A stretch of 64,000 nt of DNA from an uncultured Flavobacteriales bacterium. Lineage in GTDB: Bacteria > Bacteroidota > Bacteroidia > Flavobacteriales_G > Salibacteraceae. The notes below the pieces were generated by a model, which did no database searches, was not told where the DNA came from, and saw only the letters and a list, made by a program, of their open reading frames with translations. Positions within the stretch are counted from its first letter, which is position 1. Every line of letters starts with the position of its first letter. The position numbers and the translations under genes are program-made. Below are positions 9,096 through 63,927 of the stretch, one piece after another. The DNA is taken from assembly GCA_913020435.1 (NCBI GenBank), contig CAJVZZ010000003.1:62001-126000 (forward strand), written 5' to 3'.

Positions 9096-10163
9096 TTAGT
9101 CAGAGAAGATTTCTCCTGAGGAATGGTCTTTTATTGCCCCTGTTACCGATGCTAAAACGTTATTTTCATTGCGAATTCTTAAAGTCCCTAGAAATGCAAA
9201 GATTAAAGCTTCTTTAAATTCAATAATTTTTTTTTCTGGAACAGTAATTTCTAATGAGTCATTGTGAAGTTTTATTCTATTCATTAAATGAGTATTGAAT
9301 GTTCCACCTCCAGTAAAAAGTGCTGTTGAATTTTTTGGAATCGACTGAGCTATTTGAATTGCCGCGTGCTCGGCAATGGTTGCTATTTTTTGTTCAATAG
9401 AATAACTGGAATTATTTAAAAGAGGCCAAACTTCAGTAAACACCCATTCCCGCGACAAACTTTTTGGAGGCTTAGAGTTGTAATAAGACAAGTCATTTAG
9501 TTGTTGCAGCAATTCTTCGTCAACAGTATTTAAAGCAGCAATTTTTCCTTTGTCGTCATATTCTAGTCCAATTTTGAGAGTTAAATTGTTTAGGATATAG
9601 TTGACTGGGCAAATATCCCAAGCTGTAATTGTATTATTCGCTTTCAGCGAGATATTGGCAAACCCACCCAAATTGACACAAACGGTATGTTTTTTAAAAA
9701 GCAGCAAATCTCCAATGGGAACCAATGGAGCACCTTGTCCTCCAAGAAGGACATCTTGCTGTCTGAAATTACTTACAGTAGTAATGCTGGTTTTATTAAA
9801 AATAGAATCACCATCACCAGCTTGAAAAGAAAGTTTTTTAGCAGGTTCATGAAATAATGTATGCCCATGAGAGGCAATCAAGTCAATTCCAGTAATTGCA
9901 AATCTTTTTATGAATAAATTGACTTCTTCACCAATATAAAGCCCATATTTCCTGCTTATTTCTTGATAATTGGAATTTGGTTTTTCGGCATCTTGAAGAG
10001 TCTTAATCCACTCTATTGAATAGGCAATAGTTTCTGCTTTTTCTATTTGGAAGCTCCATTGATTCTTTTCAAGAATAAAGTGGCACAAGGCAATATCTAA
10101 TCCATCGAAAGAAGTACCTGACATTAGACCAATTACTTTGTATTCCTTTTTGTAGCTTGTCAT
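9096..10163 (-). CDS. anmK: Anhydro-N-acetylmuramic acid kinase
   Basis: This 355-aa kinase phosphorylates and hydrates 1,6-anhydro-MurNAc in cell-wall recycling. Diagnostic motifs are GLMSGTSFDGLDIAL at the N-terminus, SHGHTLFHEP, NLGGFANIS and a late FTGGGTFN. I chose the ATG at 10163, which leaves the lead peptide MTSYKKEYKVIG; an in-frame TTG at 10193 would run into the divergent promoter region of the acyl-CoA dehydrogenase. Cytoplasmic. Confidence 0.93.
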   Translation of the reverse strand: MTSYKKEYKVIGLMSGTSFDGLDIALCHFILEKNQWSFQIEKAETIAYSIEWIKTLQDAEKPNSNYQEISRKYGLYIGEEVNLFIKRFAITGIDLIASHGHTLFHEPAKKLSFQAGDGDSIFNKTSITTVSNFRQQDVLLGGQGAPLVPIGDLLLFKKHTVCVNLGGFANISLKANNTITAWDICPVNYILNNLTLKIGLEYDDKGKIAALNTVDEELLQQLNDLSYYNSKPPKSLSREWVFTEVWPLLNNSSYSIEQKIATIAEHAAIQIAQSIPKNSTALFTGGGTFNTHLMNRIKLHNDSLEITVPEKKIIEFKEALIFAFLGTLRIRNENNVLASVTGAIKDHSSGEIFSD

Positions 10164-10199
10164 AGTCACAAGTTTAGCAATTAAATGAACCAAATTAGG

Positions 10200-10207
10200 T
10201 ACTTTCG
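10200..10207 (+). promoter_or_regulatory. Predicted -7 element for the acyl-CoA dehydrogenase
   Basis: TACTTTCG matches TAnnTTTG at five of its six fixed positions, 26 bp before the ATG at 10234, in the 70-bp divergent spacer with anmK. Confidence 0.4.
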
Positions 10208-10233
10208 CGTCCTATAATAAATTGAATTTACAC

Positions 10234-11376
10234 ATGGATTTTGAATTAACAGAAGAGCACCTAGCAGTGCGAGAAGCGGCAAGAGATTTCACTCAAAATG
10301 TCCTATTGCCAGGTGTTATTGAACGTGATGAGAAAATGGAGTTTCCTAAGGAGCAGATTGCTCAACTGGGCGAGCTTGGTTTTATGGGAATGATGGTCGA
10401 TCCAAAATATGGTGGGGGCGGAATGGATGCACTCTCATATGCTATTGCAATGGAAGAGTTTTCTAAAGTAGATTCCTCTAGTTCTGTTTGTGTTTCCGTT
10501 TGTAATTCTTTAGTGAATTATGGTATTGAGCAATATGGTTCGGAAGAACAAAAACAGAAATATTTAATTCCTATTGCTAGAGGCGAAGCTATTGGTGCAT
10601 TCTGTCTGAGTGAGCCAGAAGCAGGTTCTGATGCTACTTCGCAACAAACGACCGCGGAAGATATGGGTGACTATTACCTTCTGAACGGAACAAAAAACTG
10701 GATTACCAATGGTAATTCAGCTTCTACTTACATTGTGATTGCCCAAACTGACAGAGAAAAAGGTCACAGAGGAATTAATGCACTTATCGTTGAAAAAGGA
10801 ATGGAAGGTTTCATAGTTGGAGCCAAAGAGAATAAAATGGGTATTCGTGCAAGTGATACGCACACTTTACTATTCAACGACGTGAAAGTACCAAAGGCAA
10901 ACAGAATTGGTGAAGACGGGTTTGGATTCAAGTTTGCAATGAAAACTTTAGAAGGTGGTCGAATCGGAATTGCCGCTCAAGCTTTAGGAATTGCAACAGG
11001 TGCCTATGAATTAGCGCTTGCTTATTCTAAGGAAAGAAAAGCATTTGGAAAAGAGATTTGCAAACATCAGGCAATTCAGTTCAAATTAGCCGATATGGCT
11101 ACAGACATTGAAGCAGCAAGAATGTTAGTTTATAAATCTGCTTGGTTAAAAGATCAAGGTCTGCCTTTTGGTCAAGCTTCTGCAATGGCAAAATTATATG
11201 CAAGTAAAGTTGCTATGGATACTACCATTGAAGCGGTTCAGGTTCATGGTGGTTATGGTTTTGTGAAAGAATACCATGTAGAGCGACTAATGAGAGATGC
11301 TAAGATTACTCAGATTTACGAAGGAACTTCTGAAGTTCAGAAAATCGTCATTTCTAGAGGTGTTTTGAAAGATTAG
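10234..11376 (+). CDS. Acyl-CoA dehydrogenase (short/medium-chain type)
   Basis: This 380-aa FAD enzyme oxidises acyl-CoA to enoyl-CoA in beta-oxidation. Family signatures present are GAFCLSEPEAGSDA in the substrate-binding part, the C-terminal QVHGGYGFVKEYHVERLMRD, and IYEGTSEVQK, whose glutamate is the catalytic base in the butyryl/short-chain group. I chose the ATG at 10234 (MDFELTEEH) over the in-frame TTG at 10222, because the family normally begins this way. It is apparently monocistronic, followed by a strong terminator. Chain-length preference is not determined. Confidence 0.93.
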   Translation: MDFELTEEHLAVREAARDFTQNVLLPGVIERDEKMEFPKEQIAQLGELGFMGMMVDPKYGGGGMDALSYAIAMEEFSKVDSSSSVCVSVCNSLVNYGIEQYGSEEQKQKYLIPIARGEAIGAFCLSEPEAGSDATSQQTTAEDMGDYYLLNGTKNWITNGNSASTYIVIAQTDREKGHRGINALIVEKGMEGFIVGAKENKMGIRASDTHTLLFNDVKVPKANRIGEDGFGFKFAMKTLEGGRIGIAAQALGIATGAYELALAYSKERKAFGKEICKHQAIQFKLADMATDIEAARMLVYKSAWLKDQGLPFGQASAMAKLYASKVAMDTTIEAVQVHGGYGFVKEYHVERLMRDAKITQIYEGTSEVQKIVISRGVLKD

Positions 11377-11397
11377 AAGAAAGTATTTATAAAAATT

Positions 11398-11432
11398 AAA
11401 GCCCTTTTGGAGGAATCCGAAAGGGCTTTTTT
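11398..11432. terminator. Rho-independent terminator between acyl-CoA dehydrogenase and hflX
   Basis: A 10-bp stem (AAAGCCCTTT at 11398-11407, AAAGGGCTTT at 11420-11429) has a 12-nt loop and a T run on the plus strand. It lies between two convergent genes. A-rich sequence on its left means it may also serve hflX on the minus strand. Confidence 0.85.
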
Positions 11433-11451
11433 ATGCTTTAATTGTAGATAC

Positions 11452-12639
11452 CTAATAGAGGTAATGATTATAAGGATACTTAGTTTCGTAGACACTTCTT
11501 ACCATGTGATATAATTGTTCTTTAAGTTCCTTAATGTTGGTTTTATTTTGAGCAGAAATAAAAATACATTCAGTATGTTCATTTGCCATCCAAGTCTTCT
11601 TTAAATCAATGAGTGAAACATTTTGTTTTGCATTTGCGGTAAAATCAAATTCGCCTTCCTCTAAATTTCTGTAATTATCAATTTTATTAAAAAGAAGAAT
11701 CGTAGGCTTATCTGCAGCACCAATGTCAGAGAGCGTTTTGTTTACGACTTGAATATGATCTTCAAAATTAGCATGGCTTATATCAACAATATGAATAAGA
11801 ATATCAGATTCACGAGCTTCATCTAGGGTAGATTTGAATGACTCGACTAATTGGTGAGGTAGTTTTCGGATGAATCCAACTGTGTCTGAAAGTAAAAACG
11901 GAAGGTTTTCAACTACTACTTTTCTTACAGTTGTATCTAGAGTTGCAAATAGTTTGTTTTCAGCAAAAACTTCAGACTTACTTAGGAGGTTCATTAGAGT
12001 GCTTTTTCCCACATTGGTATAACCAACCAGCGCCACTCGAACCATTTTTTGACGGTTCTTTCGCTGAACAGCATTTTGCTTGTCAATTATTTGAAGTTTT
12101 TCTTCTAGCAACGAGATTTTTTTACGAATTCTACGTCTATCTGTTTCAATTTCTTTTTCACCAGCACCACTCCGAGTTCCCGTGCCTCCTCTTTGTCTTT
12201 CCAGGTGAGTCCATAAGTTAGTTAATCGAGGCATTAAATATTGTAATCGCGCTAATTCTACTTGTGTTTTAGATTGAGCAGTTTGTGCCCTAAACTGAAA
12301 AATATCTAGAATTAATAAACTTCTATCATAGATTTTTTTCTGTACTTCTTTTTCAATGTTTCTAAGCTGGCTAGGCGAGAGATCATCATCGAAAATAACG
12401 ACATCAATATTATTATCTTTTATGTAAGAATTGATTTCAAATAGCTTTCCCTTTCCAACAAATGAACGCGTATCAGGATGATCCATTCGTTGAGTAAATC
12501 TCTTGATGGTTTTTATACCAGCAGTTTTAGCCAGAAATTCTAACTCATCTAAATACTCGGCTACTTCTTCGTCAGATTGTCCATCTAGGATTAATCCAAT
12601 AAGAACAGCTCTTTCATTTTTCTCTTCTGTTTGTGTCAA
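11452..12639 (-). CDS. hflX: Ribosome-associated GTPase HflX
   Basis: This 395-aa protein has an N-terminal HflX domain (FVGKGKLFEI; VIFDDDLSPSQLRNIE) and a glycine-rich linker RQRGGTGTRSGAGEKEIETD. The GTPase domain carries G1 GYTNVGKSTLMNLL, G3 DTVGFIRKLP and G4 NKID. HflX binds the 50S subunit and rescues stalled ribosomes under stress. The start is a TTG one base after the stop of the preceding membrane-protein gene. No ATG occurs until well inside the domain, so TTG is well supported. Confidence 0.94.
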   Translation of the reverse strand: MTQTEEKNERAVLIGLILDGQSDEEVAEYLDELEFLAKTAGIKTIKRFTQRMDHPDTRSFVGKGKLFEINSYIKDNNIDVVIFDDDLSPSQLRNIEKEVQKKIYDRSLLILDIFQFRAQTAQSKTQVELARLQYLMPRLTNLWTHLERQRGGTGTRSGAGEKEIETDRRRIRKKISLLEEKLQIIDKQNAVQRKNRQKMVRVALVGYTNVGKSTLMNLLSKSEVFAENKLFATLDTTVRKVVVENLPFLLSDTVGFIRKLPHQLVESFKSTLDEARESDILIHIVDISHANFEDHIQVVNKTLSDIGAADKPTILLFNKIDNYRNLEEGEFDFTANAKQNVSLIDLKKTWMANEHTECIFISAQNKTNIKELKEQLYHMVRSVYETKYPYNHYLY

Positions 12640-56801: not shown

Positions 56802-59303
56802 ATGAATTTAGTAATTGTTGAGTCACCAGCCAAGGCCAAAACTATAGAAGGTTTTCTAGGTAAAGGTTTTACTGTTAAGTCAAGTTTTGGTCACGTTAGA
56901 GATTTAGCTGGAAAAGACAAGGCTATTGATGTTGATAATGGATTTGAACCTCATTACGAGGTAATGAAAGATAAAACAGTGATCGTAAAAGAGCTTCAGC
57001 GATTAGCCAAGAAAAGTGATATTGTTTGGTTAGCAACGGATGAGGATCGTGAGGGTGAGGCTATTAGCTGGCATTTGTACGAAACACTTGGATTGACTCC
57101 TGAAAAGACTAAGCGCATTGTGTTTCATGAAATCACTAAATCAGCCATTACAAAAGCAATTGAAAATCCTAGAACAATCGATAAGAATTTAGTTGATGCT
57201 CAGCAAGCAAGACGTGTATTAGATAGATTGGTAGGCTTTGAACTTTCACCCGTATTATGGAGGAAAGTAAAGCCTTCTTTGTCTGCGGGTCGTGTGCAAT
57301 CGGTAACAGTTCGTCTAATCGCCGAAAGAGAAGAAGAAGTTGAAGAATTTGTACCTGTTTCTGCTTATAGAGTTAATGCAGATTTTTTAGTAGACGAAAA
57401 AAGTGTTCTTAAGGCAGAAATGCCGCATAGGTTTGAGAAGGAAGAAGACGCTTTATCCTTTTTGAAAACATGTAAGAACAGTGAATTCAGCATAAAATCT
57501 ATTGAAAAGAAACCAGGAACACGATCTCCTTCAGCACCTTTTACTACTTCAACTTTACAACAAGAAGCTAGTAGGAAATTGGGATACTCAGTTCAACAAA
57601 CAATGGTTGTTGCTCAAAAACTTTATGAAAGTGGTAAGATAACATACATGAGAACAGATTCCATGAATCTTTCTCAAACCGCAATTGATGGAGCAAAAGA
57701 TGAGATTTTAAAATCATACGGTTCAGAATATTCAAATATTAAACAATATACAACCAAGTCTAAAGGTGCGCAAGAAGCGCATGAGGCGATTCGTCCGACA
57801 AACTTTGCAGAACATACTGTTTTTGGAGATTCTAGTCTGCAAAGGCTATATGATTTGATTTGGAAAAGAACTGTTGCCTCTCAAATGTCGAATGCCAAGT
57901 TTGAGAAAACCAACGTGGTAATTGATATAAGTAAAAGTCAGAATGAACACTTTAAGGCCAAAGGAGAGGTGTTGCTATTTGACGGATTCTTAAAAGTATA
58001 CTTAGAAGGAGTTGATGATGATGATGAGCAAGAAGAGCAAGGAATGTTGCCTCCAATTAAAGAAGGACAGGCTTTAGAACCAAAATCTATTCTTGCTACA
58101 GAGAAATTTACAAATCATCCTCCAAGATACAGTGAAGCTAGTTTAGTTAAGAAGTTAGAAGCATTAGGAATTGGTAGACCATCTACTTATGCTCCAACGA
58201 TCAATACAGTTCAAAAAAGAGGTTATGTTGAAAAAGCTGATCGCGATGGGCACGAAAGGAAATTCCGTCAGTTATCTTTAATCGGAAGAAATGATGTCAA
58301 AGAAGATGATAAAGTTGAGAATACTGGTGCTGAGCGAAAGAAATTATTTCCTACGGATATAGGCAGAGTTGTAAACGATTATTTAGTTAAAACGTTTCCT
58401 TCAGTGCTAGATTACGGTTTTACGGCTGAAGTTGAGAAAGAATTTGATGAAATAGCTGAAGGATTGAAAAAGTGGAACGATATGATCGATCGCTTCTACG
58501 GACCTTTTCACAAGGCGGTGAATGCCGCACTGGAAGATGAAGGCCGCGCAAATGGTGAACGATTGCTAGGGGTAGATCCTAAATCTGGCAAAAACGTTTA
58601 TGCTAAAATTGGTCGATTTGGGCCAATGATTCAAATTGGCGAGCGAGAAGATGAAGAAAAGCCTTTATTTTCTCCAATTCGAGGGAATATTAGTATGACC
58701 AAGGTTACACTCGAACAAGCGTTAGAGTTTTTTAAGCTTCCAAAAACATTAGGAGAGCACGACAAAGAAGAAGTCTTAATTGCTGTGGGGCGCTTTGGGC
58801 CATATGTTAAATATGGTACAATGTACGTGTCTCTAGATAAAGGGGAAGACCCTATGTCCGTTGAGCTGCCAAGAGCGATTGAACTTATTGAAGCGAAAAA
58901 AGTAGCTGATGCACCTGTTGATCATTACGATGACCTCCCTGTTCAAAAAGGTGTTGGAAGATTTGGTCCTTTTATTAAGTGGAATAGTATATTTATTAAC
59001 GTAAACAAGAAATACGATTTCGATAACCTTTCTCATGAAGACATTGTCCAATTAATAGAGGACAAAAAGCAAAAAGAAATTGATAAGGTTGTTCATAATT
59101 GGGAAGAAGAAGGAATCAGAGTTGAAAAAGCACGTTGGGGAAGATCTAACATTATAAAGGGTAAAACTAAGATTGAACTTCCGAAAACAGTAGATGCCGA
59201 GAGCCTATCTCTTAAAGATGTAAAAGATCTTATCGAGAAAAACAAACCTGTAAAAAAGAGTAAGGCAGGTGCGAAAAAGGCAACTAAAGCTAAGAAGAAA
59301 TAG
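56802..59303 (+). CDS. topA: DNA topoisomerase I (type IA)
   Basis: This 833-aa enzyme relaxes negative supercoils. The Toprim domain has LVIVESPAKAKTIEGFLG and TDEDREGEAISWH. The nucleophile is Tyr282 in ITYMRTDSMNLS. The C-terminus has several repeats around GRFGP (KIGRFGPMIQ, VGRFGPYVK, VGRFGPFIKW) instead of zinc ribbons, and a Lys-rich tail. These repeats are typical of this group. A ureohydrolase-like gene follows 22 bp downstream. Confidence 0.96.
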   Translation: MNLVIVESPAKAKTIEGFLGKGFTVKSSFGHVRDLAGKDKAIDVDNGFEPHYEVMKDKTVIVKELQRLAKKSDIVWLATDEDREGEAISWHLYETLGLTPEKTKRIVFHEITKSAITKAIENPRTIDKNLVDAQQARRVLDRLVGFELSPVLWRKVKPSLSAGRVQSVTVRLIAEREEEVEEFVPVSAYRVNADFLVDEKSVLKAEMPHRFEKEEDALSFLKTCKNSEFSIKSIEKKPGTRSPSAPFTTSTLQQEASRKLGYSVQQTMVVAQKLYESGKITYMRTDSMNLSQTAIDGAKDEILKSYGSEYSNIKQYTTKSKGAQEAHEAIRPTNFAEHTVFGDSSLQRLYDLIWKRTVASQMSNAKFEKTNVVIDISKSQNEHFKAKGEVLLFDGFLKVYLEGVDDDDEQEEQGMLPPIKEGQALEPKSILATEKFTNHPPRYSEASLVKKLEALGIGRPSTYAPTINTVQKRGYVEKADRDGHERKFRQLSLIGRNDVKEDDKVENTGAERKKLFPTDIGRVVNDYLVKTFPSVLDYGFTAEVEKEFDEIAEGLKKWNDMIDRFYGPFHKAVNAALEDEGRANGERLLGVDPKSGKNVYAKIGRFGPMIQIGEREDEEKPLFSPIRGNISMTKVTLEQALEFFKLPKTLGEHDKEEVLIAVGRFGPYVKYGTMYVSLDKGEDPMSVELPRAIELIEAKKVADAPVDHYDDLPVQKGVGRFGPFIKWNSIFINVNKKYDFDNLSHEDIVQLIEDKKQKEIDKVVHNWEEEGIRVEKARWGRSNIIKGKTKIELPKTVDAESLSLKDVKDLIEKNKPVKKSKAGAKKATKAKKK

Positions 59304-59325: not shown

Positions 59326-60486
59326 ATGGAAATCGATATCTATTTTAAAAAGATTGAATTCTTGAATGCTGATTTTTCAGCGAATTCAATAGGGGAGAAG
59401 ATTCTTATAAATAATGGTTCAAATGAATTTCCAGAATTGAAGGGAATTGATATTGCGATCTTTGGAGTAATCGAAGACAGAAATGCTGTGAGTAACACTG
59501 GATGCGCGGATGGTATTGATGAAATTCGGAAAAAACTTTACGCTTTAAAACGAAATTGGAATTGTTCTGTTGCTGATTTTGGAGATGTTTTCCCAGGAGA
59601 AGAGGTTTCTGACACCTACTTTGCTGTTAGCTCGGTGGTTTCACAATGTATTAAAGAAAATGTTTTACCAATTATTATAGGTGGTAGTCAAGACTTAACC
59701 TTTGCTAATTATCAAGCATATGAGGCGCTTGAGCAGGTAGTAAATATTGTTTCTGTTGATAATGCAGTTGATCTAGGAGAAGTGGATCAGCCAATTAACT
59801 CAAAGGCATTTTTGAATAAAATTATATTGCATCAGCCTAACTATCTTTTCAGTTATAGCAATTTGGGTTATCAAACTTATTTTGTTTCTGAAGAGGAAAG
59901 ATCGTTAATGGATAAGTTGTTCTTTGATATTCACCGATTGGGAGAAGTGAAAAATGATATTAGGGAAGTTGAACCTATTGTAAGGAACGCTGATATGCTT
60001 TCTATTGATATTTCTGCTGTACGTAGTGCAGATGCTCCAGGAAATAGAAATACTACACCAAATGGATTTGACGGAGAAGAGATTTGTGCGATTACCAGAT
60101 ATGCTGGTTTAAGTGATAAGCTCTCTAGTATTGGTATATATGAGTATAATCCTGAAGTTGATAGCCAAGGCCAGACAGCGTTCTTGATAGCTGAAATGAT
60201 ATGGTATATTATGGAAGGGTATTACAATAGAAAGGGAGATGGTGTAAGTAAGGACGGTAACGATGTGTTAAAATATACAGTTGCAACTTCAACTGATGCC
60301 GATGAAATTGTTTTCTATAAAAACTTAAAGTCTGATAGGTGGTGGATGGACGTGCCTTATCCTGAGTCCAAATTATCAAAGTATAGGAGGCATCAGCTTG
60401 TTCCGTGCAGCTATAGTGACTATCAGCAAGCGTGTAATGATGGTATTCCAGAAAAGTGGTGGAGAAATTATAAAAGATTGCGATAG
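59326..60486 (+). CDS. Ureohydrolase/arginase-fold protein lacking metal-binding histidines
   Basis: This 386-aa protein follows the arginase/formimidoylglutamase plan: FGVIEDRNAVSNTGCADGIDEI, IIIGGSQDLTFANY, SVDNAVDLGE and LSIDISAVRSADAPGN line up with the four signature regions. Key residues are changed: GGxHD is GGSQD (119-123), DAHxD is DNAVD (145-149) and SxDxD is SIDIS (226-230), so both metal-binding His and one Asp are gone. Catalysis by the usual Mn2+ pair is unlikely. I chose the ATG at 59326. It lies between topA and the porP-gldK-gldL block. The role is unknown; a T9SS-linked pseudoenzyme is a hypothesis. Confidence 0.85.
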   Translation: MEIDIYFKKIEFLNADFSANSIGEKILINNGSNEFPELKGIDIAIFGVIEDRNAVSNTGCADGIDEIRKKLYALKRNWNCSVADFGDVFPGEEVSDTYFAVSSVVSQCIKENVLPIIIGGSQDLTFANYQAYEALEQVVNIVSVDNAVDLGEVDQPINSKAFLNKIILHQPNYLFSYSNLGYQTYFVSEEERSLMDKLFFDIHRLGEVKNDIREVEPIVRNADMLSIDISAVRSADAPGNRNTTPNGFDGEEICAITRYAGLSDKLSSIGIYEYNPEVDSQGQTAFLIAEMIWYIMEGYYNRKGDGVSKDGNDVLKYTVATSTDADEIVFYKNLKSDRWWMDVPYPESKLSKYRRHQLVPCSYSDYQQACNDGIPEKWWRNYKRLR

Positions 60487-60570
60487 CTCTATTCTGGTTT
60501 TCGTGCTTTAAGTTATTGATTTAAAGTTACTAACAAGGGTAATTGCGAGTTTCGCTTTATGTTAATTAAA

Positions 60571-60601
60571 TTTGGTTGATTTATTTTTTTGAGTATTTTA
60601 G
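60571..60601 (+). promoter_or_regulatory. Predicted promoter of the porP-like gene / T9SS block 2
   Basis: TTTG (60571-60574), a 19-bp spacer and TATTTTAG (60594-60601; one mismatch to TAnnTTTG). The ATG is 24 bp downstream. Confidence 0.55.
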
Positions 60602-60625: not shown

Positions 60626-61624
60626 ATGTTTATGAAGAGAATAATACTTATAGTGTTAACTTTCAGTACCTTGAGCGTGCTTGGGCAGCAAGACCCTCAG
60701 TTTACACAGAACTTTGCTAATAAATTGTATAACAATCCCGGATACGCTGGAATGAACGGTGCTATTTGCGCCACCGTAATAGGAAGGCAGCAGTGGTTAG
60801 GTTTTGATGGGGCTCCAAGAACAGGACTTATTTCAATACATAGTCCTATTAAATTACCTATCGAAACTAGCCTCATCAATCTTGGTGTTGGGTTTACTGC
60901 GGCGAATGATATTATTGGTCCATTAAACACAAATTTTTTCAAATTGGCAATTTCAAATCGATTTACATTTAATGCAGGTACACTTAGCATAGGTGTTGGT
61001 GTCGGAACACTCGGTGCTGTTATAGATGGGAGTAACTTTTTGACACCTGATGGTGAAGATGCATTAACCGGCGTTATAACAGACCCTAATTTGGCTCCAG
61101 GAGTTGGGGGAAAGGCTTATGGGTTTGATTTTGATATGGGTGCATACTTTAGAAGCGCAAGTAATAACATATTTGCTGGAGTATCGATGATGCATTTAAC
61201 TCAAAGCGAACTTCAAGGTGATCTTGTAGGAGATCAGTCTAATGATTATAAAGTTGAATCGCATTTGTATGTAATGGGAGGCTATAGAATAAATAATTTA
61301 GTTCCGAATTGGGAGTTTGTTCCTTCTGTTTTCTTGAAAACAGAATTTTCTACTACTCAGTTTGATTTTAATGCTAGAGCTATATATAAAGGAATGATTT
61401 GGGGTGGAGTCTCTTATAGAATTCAAGATGCTATTTCGCCAATGGCAGGTTATAAACATGACTTTGGAGCACCAGGTGTAATGAAGATAGGCGCTTCTTA
61501 TGATTTAAATACTTCAAAGCTAAGAAGCTTCAACAGTGGTACTGTTGAGGTGTTCCTGAATTATTGTTTTACAATAACCCCCAAACCCAAAATTACTATT
61601 CATAAAAATCCACGCTGGTTGTAG
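60626..61624 (+). CDS. PorP/SprF-family type IX secretion membrane protein (copy 2)
   Basis: This protein of 332 aa (330 from a second ATG at 60632) has a signal peptide ending SVLGQ, the family start QDPQFTQNFANKLYNNPGYAG and a beta-barrel-like body. Its place directly before gldK-gldL matches the porP-porK-porL-porM order of Porphyromonas gingivalis, so PorP is the most likely role. It is a distant paralog of the copy at 29461-30465. Confidence 0.9.
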   Translation: MFMKRIILIVLTFSTLSVLGQQDPQFTQNFANKLYNNPGYAGMNGAICATVIGRQQWLGFDGAPRTGLISIHSPIKLPIETSLINLGVGFTAANDIIGPLNTNFFKLAISNRFTFNAGTLSIGVGVGTLGAVIDGSNFLTPDGEDALTGVITDPNLAPGVGGKAYGFDFDMGAYFRSASNNIFAGVSMMHLTQSELQGDLVGDQSNDYKVESHLYVMGGYRINNLVPNWEFVPSVFLKTEFSTTQFDFNARAIYKGMIWGGVSYRIQDAISPMAGYKHDFGAPGVMKIGASYDLNTSKLRSFNSGTVEVFLNYCFTITPKPKITIHKNPRWL

Positions 61625-61662: not shown

Positions 61663-61670
61663 TAATTTTG
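61663..61670 (+). promoter_or_regulatory. Predicted -7 element of gldK
   Basis: TAATTTTG is an exact TAnnTTTG match, 60 bp before the gldK ATG at 61731, in the porP-gldK gap. Confidence 0.5.
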
Positions 61671-61730
61671 GCGTTTAACCATAGATTCATATTGTATAAA
61701 AATACTCACATATCAAAAAAAAGAGGTAAC

Positions 61731-63044
61731 ATGAAAAACTTACTGATTGTAGGATTCGTAGCAATGATCCTTTCTAGTTGCATGAACGATGCAGGTGGAC
61801 AGTTGACCGGTGTTACAGGGCGTCAGGTTTGGTATCAACCAGATCCATATGGAATGTTATACATACCTCCGGGTAGTTATACCATGGGCCCAAGTGACGC
61901 GGATGCACCCTATTCATTTACAGCAAAGTCGAAAACAGTTTCTATTTCGCCATTCTACATGGATGAGACAGAGATTACAAATAACGAATATCGTCAATTT
62001 GTATATTGGGTTCGAGATTCGATGGCTTATAAGATTTTAGGAGAAGAGGTCAGTGAGGAGGAGTTTCTTATTGCGGTTAACCAATTCGAAGAAGATATCG
62101 ATCCTCCAATTATTAATTGGGATGCTTATTTAGATTGGAATGACCCTGAGAATAGAGAAGCACTTTCTGTGATGTTCTTGCCTGAATACGAGCGTTTTTA
62201 CGGAAAAAAGGCTTTGGACAATAGGAAATTGGTCTATGAGTATTATTGGATTGATTATAAAGATGCAGCAAGAAAAAGCCCAACGATTAATGGTGATCCT
62301 CTTAGAGACAGAGGAATGAACGATAGATCAGTGTTTATACGTAGAGATGAAATTTCCGTTTACCCGGATACATTGTGTTGGATTCATGATTTTACTTATT
62401 CGTACAATGAACCATTAACCAATATGTATTTCTGGCACCCAGCTTACGATGAATATCCTTTAGTTGGTGTTACTTGGAAGCAAGCTCGAGCATTCTCAAT
62501 TTGGAGAACTTTAGAACATAATAGGTTTTTGTCTTCAGTTGGAGAGGCTTTTGTTCAGGACTATAGACTTCCTACTGAGTCAGAATGGGAGTACGCTGCA
62601 AGGGGTGGACTAGATCTTAGTCCTTATCCATGGGGTGGTCCTTATATAAGAAATACTAGAGGTTGCTTTTTGGCGAACTTTAAACCGCTACGAGGCAATT
62701 ATTATGATGATGGTGGTATTCACACAGTTCCTGTAGTTTCGTACGAACCAAATGATTTTGGGTTGTACTGTATGGCAGGTAATGTTGCGGAATGGACAAC
62801 TACAGCATTTGACGAATCAGTTTACGATTTCGCACATGATTTGAATATGGATTATAAATACGAGGCTGAGGATGATGATCCTCCAGTATTGAAAAGAAAG
62901 GTTATCAGAGGGGGCTCTTGGAAGGATGTTGGATATTTCTTGCAAACTAGCTCTAGAACTTACGAATACCAAGATACAGCTAAGTCATATATCGGTTTTA
63001 GAAATGTGATGAGTTATCTTGGAATGGGTAAAAGTGATATCTAA
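61731..63044 (+). CDS. gldK: Gliding motility / T9SS lipoprotein GldK (PorK-type)
   Basis: This 437-aa lipoprotein has a signal with lipobox ILSSC. A SUMF1-like fold follows, with MLYIPPGSYTMGPSD, YRLPTESEWEYAARGG, YCMAGNVAEWTTTAF and VIRGGSWKDVGYF. With PorN/GldN it forms the periplasmic ring of the T9SS. I chose the ATG at 61731, preceded by the purine-rich AAGAGGTAAC; the longer frame from a TTG at 61668 is not a signal peptide. It is paralogous to GldJ. gldL follows. Confidence 0.95.
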   Translation: MKNLLIVGFVAMILSSCMNDAGGQLTGVTGRQVWYQPDPYGMLYIPPGSYTMGPSDADAPYSFTAKSKTVSISPFYMDETEITNNEYRQFVYWVRDSMAYKILGEEVSEEEFLIAVNQFEEDIDPPIINWDAYLDWNDPENREALSVMFLPEYERFYGKKALDNRKLVYEYYWIDYKDAARKSPTINGDPLRDRGMNDRSVFIRRDEISVYPDTLCWIHDFTYSYNEPLTNMYFWHPAYDEYPLVGVTWKQARAFSIWRTLEHNRFLSSVGEAFVQDYRLPTESEWEYAARGGLDLSPYPWGGPYIRNTRGCFLANFKPLRGNYYDDGGIHTVPVVSYEPNDFGLYCMAGNVAEWTTTAFDESVYDFAHDLNMDYKYEAEDDDPPVLKRKVIRGGSWKDVGYFLQTSSRTYEYQDTAKSYIGFRNVMSYLGMGKSDI

Positions 63045-63078: not shown

Positions 63079-63927
63079 ATGTCAGGGAAAAAAGGTGGAT
63101 TAGCAGCGTTTCTTTATGGAACAGAAAAAGGAAAGACAATTGTAAACATGGCCATGAGTTTGGGTGCGGCAATTGTAATTCTAGGTGCATTGTTTAAAAT
63201 CCAGCATTACCCAGGTGCTAGTTTGATGCTGATAATAGGTCTTTGTACTGAATCTGCATTATTTGCCTTAGGTGCCATTGAACCACAACATTTGAAGGAT
63301 GATTGGTCTAAAGTTTATCCTGAATTGAAACACGCAGCTGAAGAGGATGATTTTGAATCTGAGGGTTTGTCAGAACTAAATGAAGGTGGTGATGACTTGA
63401 CCGTTACTCAAAAGCTAGATGATATGCTTGAAGAAGCGAAAATTGGCCCAGAATTATTGGAAAGTTTAGGTAGTGGTTTAAGGGGTTTAAGTGATCAAGC
63501 TAGTAAACTTTCAGATATCACAGACGCAACGGTAGCAACTGATGAGTATGTGCAAAGTGTTAGAGGGGCTGCAAGTTCTGTGACAACTTTATCTGAAACT
63601 TATACAATGGCTGCAGACGCATTATCAGGTCTAGCAGGAGATAACAGAGAAGGCGCAGATTTTGGTGATCAATTGTCAAAAATGTCGTCTAATCTTACCG
63701 AATTGAATTCTGCTTATGAATTACAATTGAAAAGTGCTCAAGAAACATTAGAAAATTCGAAAGGATACTTTAATGGAGTTGATGAGTTAATGGATAGCTT
63801 GAATAATTCAGTTGATGATGCTAAAATATATTCAGAAAAAATGACTGAGCTTTCAAGGAATATTACTTCATTGAATACTGTTTATGGAAACATGCTAACA
63901 GCAATGAATCCTAATGCTAACTCTTAA
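63079..63927 (+). CDS. gldL: Gliding motility / T9SS inner-membrane protein GldL (PorL-type)
   Basis: This 282-aa protein has two membrane helices at about residues 20-42 and 50-68. The first carries the conserved ILGALFKIQHYPGASLM, the second the glutamate in LCTESALFALGAIEPQ. The cytoplasmic part (about 80-282) is helical with Ser/Leu/Asp heptads, probably coiled-coil. GldL and GldM form the proton-driven motor for secretion and gliding. gldM most likely begins at 63991. Confidence 0.95.
   Translation: MSGKKGGLAAFLYGTEKGKTIVNMAMSLGAAIVILGALFKIQHYPGASLMLIIGLCTESALFALGAIEPQHLKDDWSKVYPELKHAAEEDDFESEGLSELNEGGDDLTVTQKLDDMLEEAKIGPELLESLGSGLRGLSDQASKLSDITDATVATDEYVQSVRGAASSVTTLSETYTMAADALSGLAGDNREGADFGDQLSKMSSNLTELNSAYELQLKSAQETLENSKGYFNGVDELMDSLNNSVDDAKIYSEKMTELSRNITSLNTVYGNMLTAMNPNANS

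Follow-up and report, generated by a model that had tools for sequence, protein, structure and literature searches.

We found that P0001, a gene in the window (the whole 64,000-nucleotide stretch of DNA analysed here), has lost the binuclear metal site of the ureohydrolases that it resembles, and that its family is likely to be a new pseudoenzyme family mislabelled as formimidoylglutamase. The reading that we prefer, at somewhat better than even probability, is that these pseudoenzymes act as cytosolic, non-catalytic binding proteins. An initial annotation of the same DNA had called P0001 a pseudoenzyme probably kept for a non-catalytic role. That part is upheld in so far as selection retains the gene for a purpose other than canonical binuclear Mn hydrolysis; the T9SS role attached to it is not supported. 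The position and length of the open reading frame were confirmed, as was its placement behind topA and ahead of porP-gldK-gldL (Table 1). An in-frame TTG two codons upstream of the ATG gives an alternative protein of 388 aa. As a separate observation, the gldK frame as listed begins with TTG; its true start is probably the ATG near 61728, about 60 bases downstream, because of the lipoprotein-like MKNLLIVGFVAMILSSC.

Table 1. Features of the P0001 locus, in window positions.
Feature	Position	Strand	Details
topA	56802..59303	+	stop codon 22 bases ahead of the P0001 ATG
P0001, pseudo-ureohydrolase gene	59326..60486	+	386-aa ORF; PF00491, AlphaFold2, PDB match, dN/dS
GGSQD (degenerate GGxH[DS])	59680..59694	+	residues 119-123; His101 equivalent is Gln122
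DNAVD (degenerate DAHxD)	59758..59772	+	residues 145-149; His126 equivalent is Ala147, both Asp retained
EPxxR helix motif	59971..59985	+	residues 216-220; identical across 87 homologs, unconserved in active relatives
SIDIS (degenerate SxDxD)	60001..60015	+	residues 226-230; Asp234 equivalent is Ser230, Asp228 retained
Family-specific C-terminal extension	60226..60483	+	residues 301-386; FxKS...RWW...PCSxxDY; invariant F330, W339, C361
Promoter-like site, Bacteroidota type	60543..60574	+	TTG-N21-TAAATTTG; between P0001 and porP
porP/sprF-family gene	60626..61624	+	PF11751 184 bits, TIGR03519 194 bits
gldK (T9SS ring lipoprotein)	61668..63044	+	TIGR03525 587 bits
gldL (T9SS motor)	63079..63927	+	TIGR03513 211 bits

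Profile searches matched P0001 to the Pfam Arginase family PF00491 at 77 bits (cut-off 22). The best NCBIfam match was hutG (TIGR01227), which was also matched by 59 of 62 homologs. A second Pfam match, PV_NSP1, fell below its cut-off (E 0.12) and was set aside as chance. The AlphaFold2 model, built from 62 homologs, had a mean pLDDT of 93.5 and a pTM of 0.93. VIA-align superimposed it on Trypanosoma cruzi formiminoglutamase 4myn with a Z of 37.2 over 277 residues (rmsd 2.0); the match spans residues 17-303 of P0001, and residues 304-386 lie beyond it. When the model was searched with Foldseek, a subunit-B chain of metformin hydrolase, 8ryi_C, came first and formiminoglutamases came next. The PF00491 score and the modelled arginase alpha/beta fold together indicate that P0001 is a member of the ureohydrolase superfamily. 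The predicted fold is common to P0001 and HutG (B. subtilis 3m1r, T. cruzi 4mxr; Z 35-37), but P0001 differs from HutG in its lost binuclear ligands, in carrying about 85 additional residues as a C-terminal extension, and in a TIGR01227 score of 90.2 bits, far under the equivalog cut-off of 229. Inspection of P0001 revealed no signal peptide.

The three motifs GGSQD, DNAVD and SIDIS read as the initial annotation gave them, and both metal-binding histidines are gone. In rat arginase I numbering, His101, His126 and Asp234 correspond to positions 122, 147 and 230 of P0001. Three of the six binuclear metal ligands are kept, Asp145, Asp149 and Asp228; these are three of the four site-A ligands, a point absent from the initial annotation. 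Among 87 homologs, three ligands are kept in 63, four in 14 and none to two in 10; more than four are never found, and neither is the pair of site-B-specific ligands. By comparison, all 20 ureohydrolases outside the clade keep five or six of the six, with His at position 147 and Asp at 230 in every case. These counts, 87 homologs against 20 relatives, exclude chance or sequencing error as the source of the substitutions. The replacing residues vary: position 122 is Q in 63 homologs, H in 13 and N in 6; position 147 is K in 29, R in 18, Q in 7, A in 6 and His in 3 (L039, L042 and L048); and position 230 is S in 37, N in 16 and G in 12, with T also found and Asp in 3.

The site-A aspartates bear on whether the protein might still be an enzyme. 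Asp145, Asp149 and Asp228 are conserved in 95%, 87% and 91% of the 87 homologs, respectively, and 13 homologs keep His at 122. Conservation at around 90% speaks against a purely binding role; a single metal might be held, and some residual or new chemistry might persist. P0001 could then use a mononuclear site A (Asp145, Asp149, Asp228 and Gln/His122), or some other site, for a changed reaction. However, site-A residues have also been lost, with the gene retained, in families f24, f26, f4 and f12 and in part of f1 (homologs without them are L073-L078, L085, L086, L095 and L096). Furthermore, only 47 of the 87 homologs have E at position 273, that of the catalytic Glu, where N or G is often found. 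We consider an enzyme of this kind quite unlikely.

Homologs were detected at E 1e-5 in about 365 of the 395 sampled genomes of the class, a count in which a few rows may be ordinary ureohydrolases (G614, for example), and in 59 of 60 relatives. Other classes of the phylum gave only weaker matches, of 98 bits at most, and the 11 of these that were read all keep five or six of the six metal ligands. The closest relatives outside the clade, L117-L122, come from these other classes (77-98 bits, five or six ligands). In a tree of 65 sequences, the 44 homologs formed one clade apart from the 21 other ureohydrolases, with support of 100/100 and a branch length of 1.01. The P0001 family did not group with intact-site ureohydrolases, as would be expected of HutG. 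The dN/dS of P0001 was 0.046 and 0.037 against two congeners (a third pair was saturated), in the range of topA, porP, gldK and gldL, and P0001 is under strong purifying selection. A pseudogene or decaying gene was ruled out by these values of about 0.04 and by the open frames. A genome of the same genus carries a second copy, 45% identical (G002:C11:15851-16891); its reported contamination is 7%, and the copy probably sits on a foreign contig.

We then turn to the parts of the protein that lie outside the old active site. The EPxxR helix motif and the C-terminal extension are the best conserved regions. Eight residues do not vary in the alignment of 87 homologs and are absent or unconserved among relatives outside the clade: F200, E216, P217, R220, W293, F330, W339 and C361. 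The C-terminal extension has no counterpart in intact-site relatives. Modelled alone, it gave four strands and two helices at a moderate pLDDT of 78.8. Its searches returned no match of note in Pfam (best E 0.0023, for one member only), E 0.04 or worse against PDB profiles, and no clear match by structure (Foldseek best E 0.36, VIA Z of at most 4.2); an SH3-like resemblance, to spectrin, had an E of 0.2. Homologs in families f26 and f96 have lost the metal site and a large part of their N-terminal half, yet retain the LGxL..EP helix and F.KS...(R/K)WW...DY..A. The f96 homologs are 308-315 aa long and have lost C361; those of two f26 genomes are 277-278 aa. From the invariant residues and from what f26 and f96 keep after loss of the metal site, we infer that the conserved function sits in the EPxxR helix and the C-terminal extension, not in the old active site. 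At three f26 loci (L077, L078 and L080) the homolog adjoins murF and a gldJ-like gene; these proteins have 277-335 aa, an eroded N-terminal half and a retained extension.

These features fit the following course for a non-catalytic binding protein. A formimidoylglutamase-like ureohydrolase in the ancestor of the class would have lost the site-B-specific ligands (the His126 and Asp234 equivalents), and most lineages would have lost the site-A His as well. The alpha/beta core would serve as a scaffold, and the EPxxR helix and the C-terminal extension may form one conserved surface for a partner protein or a small ligand. In a more specific form, the protein would be an ancient, class-wide regulator in the cytosol that arose from an inactivated ureohydrolase, with the EPxxR and FxKS/RWW/PCSxxDY surface binding an important partner such as topoisomerase I or a cell-envelope enzyme. 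On this reading, the lineages that lost the enzyme half would reveal the surface as the true function; it is a tentative and rather unlikely proposal.

Inactive proteins of the arginase family are known, and one of them, MetCb, has a defined role (PMC11271267). MetCb/MfmB of metformin hydrolase (8ryi, 8snf) resembles P0001 in being a ureohydrolase-fold pseudoenzyme, and MetCb has no metal centre (PMC11271267). P0001 has lost site B but keeps three site-A aspartates; its family is class-wide and has a C-terminal extension of its own. PMC11271267 also cites two arginase relatives described as having no binuclear metal cluster: an arginase-like protein of Trypanosoma brucei (Hai et al. 2015) and, in Fusobacteriaceae, the arginase domain of ODC/arginase. 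In this they resemble the P0001 family, and they belong to lineages separate from it.

The example of MetCa/MetCb raises an unlikely alternative, in which P0001 joins an active ureohydrolase of the same cell, as its inactive subunit, in a mixed oligomer. The top Foldseek match is subunit B of such a complex, and MetCb has been characterised as a partner free of metal (PMC11271267). A conventional ureohydrolase match is present, too, in those relatives with a completeness of at least 90%, and the source genome has a conventional ureohydrolase of its own (L001, G000:C6:119929-120810; PF00491 167 bits). However, the MetCb gene adjoins that of its active partner in one cluster, whereas in the loci read no conventional ureohydrolase was seen beside a homolog, the family lying apart from active paralogs. 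In addition, genome G057 has the active type without a homolog, and several of the invariant residues fall in the C-terminal extension, beyond the part that aligns with MetCb.

The initial annotation had mentioned similar genes near gldK in other Bacteroidota. We saw this among members of the class: taking 5 kb as the limit for linkage, 80 of 125 genomes had gldK on the same strand, always downstream, at a distance of 0.1-2.4 kb. Several families showed the order miaB-topA-gene-(porP)-gldK-gldL in the 18-kb loci read; the recurrences are not independent events, because the order is inherited. Linkage of this kind would suit a protein that assists the T9SS/gliding machine without catalysis, perhaps by partnering the GldLM motor from the cytosol. 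Two further observations would suit such an accessory: three f26 genomes have murF and a gldJ-like gene next to the homolog, and 59 of 60 relatives carry both the homolog and a GldK match. The spacing of the genes favours a unit with topA instead. The gap from topA to the gene had a median of 15 bp, with 30 bp or less in 47 of 65 cases and some overlaps, whereas the gap to porP or gldK had a median of 134 bp and a minimum of 52 bp and was never 30 bp or less (0 of 62). The Bacteroidota -7 motif TAnnTTTG was enriched before porP/gldK, occurring in 23 of these 62 gaps (shuffles, mean 9 and maximum 17). The gaps and the promoter motif argue against a shared transcription unit with porP/gldKLMN.

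Reported co-transcribed T9SS units are porP-K-L-M-N or gldK-N (PMC5790014). P0001 is a chromosomal neighbour of this PorP-GldKLMN core block but stands outside it, across a larger gap. Judged from its sequence spacing, P0001 probably forms one transcription unit with topA in this genome and would be translated from the topA transcript, and it is probably a bystander of the T9SS block. Where the order is broken, f24 and G055 keep the homolog near topA, and G059 keeps it near gld genes. Furthermore, gldK linkage is missing in f22, f23, f16, f28, f24, f4 and f12. The contexts without the gld block (an SDR epimerase; murQ and nqrF; PBP4 and pheS; murF-gldJ in f26; a glycosyltransferase) indicate no common pathway. 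As a side observation, at L097 (f21) the GldK encoded at 10126-12162 has 678 aa and its profile match is split in two, which suggests a large insertion or extension.

Co-occurrence gave exceptions in both directions. GldK was present in 371 of the 395 class genomes. At least 11 genomes with GldK and SprA, from six families (f19, f29, f30, f100, f108 and f118), had no homolog, including by profile search (G057, G247, G306, G629, G659, G479, G504, G652, G426, G526 and G636). For the T9SS genomes scored homolog-negative, a second search used profiles of the full-length protein and of its C-terminal part. This recovered diverged homologs of 308-315 aa in two of four f96 genomes, gave short weak matches only in two f100 genomes, and found none or trivial ones in the others; G601 and G619 had short weak profile matches only. 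Conversely, the homolog was present in G550 (99% complete) and G386 (95%), in which GldK (at 1e-50), SprA and GldL were not found. These are apparently recent T9SS losses, with GldL present in the congeners G061, G055 and G416. The initial annotation had named many T9SS-free genomes with the protein as evidence against its idea; we found two clean ones, in a sample where T9SS-free genomes are rare. G566, G357 and part of f30 lack the homolog and T9SS alike. As evidence for a link this is weak, because the first two have small genomes and those f30 members that do carry T9SS also have no homolog.

The proposal that the protein tunes T9SS assembly is thus not supported, with co-occurrence failing both ways and the gene packed against topA. 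Among the papers searched, none connected arginase or formiminoglutamase to T9SS or to gldK; the search gave only an unrelated Prevotella genome and a Mariniflexile description. A T9SS role of the family is weakened, and a T9SS accessory is an improbable reading. The distribution result removes a plausible but weak T9SS research lead.

P0001 and its homologs, which we read as binding proteins, apparently represent a gene that is almost universal in one class and under strong constraint, and no NCBIfam equivalog covers the family. Metabolic reconstructions can be misled if the gene takes its name from hutG, its nearest profile. In a paper on a Mariniflexile genome, histidine degradation is described as missing 'except for formiminoglutamase' (PMC11278836), as such naming would produce. 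That formiminoglutamase is probably a gene of the P0001 family. The family also offers a clean case in which to study how a metalloenzyme turns into a binding protein, since it has relatives with an intact site, sites that are half degraded, and lineages whose enzyme half is eroded.
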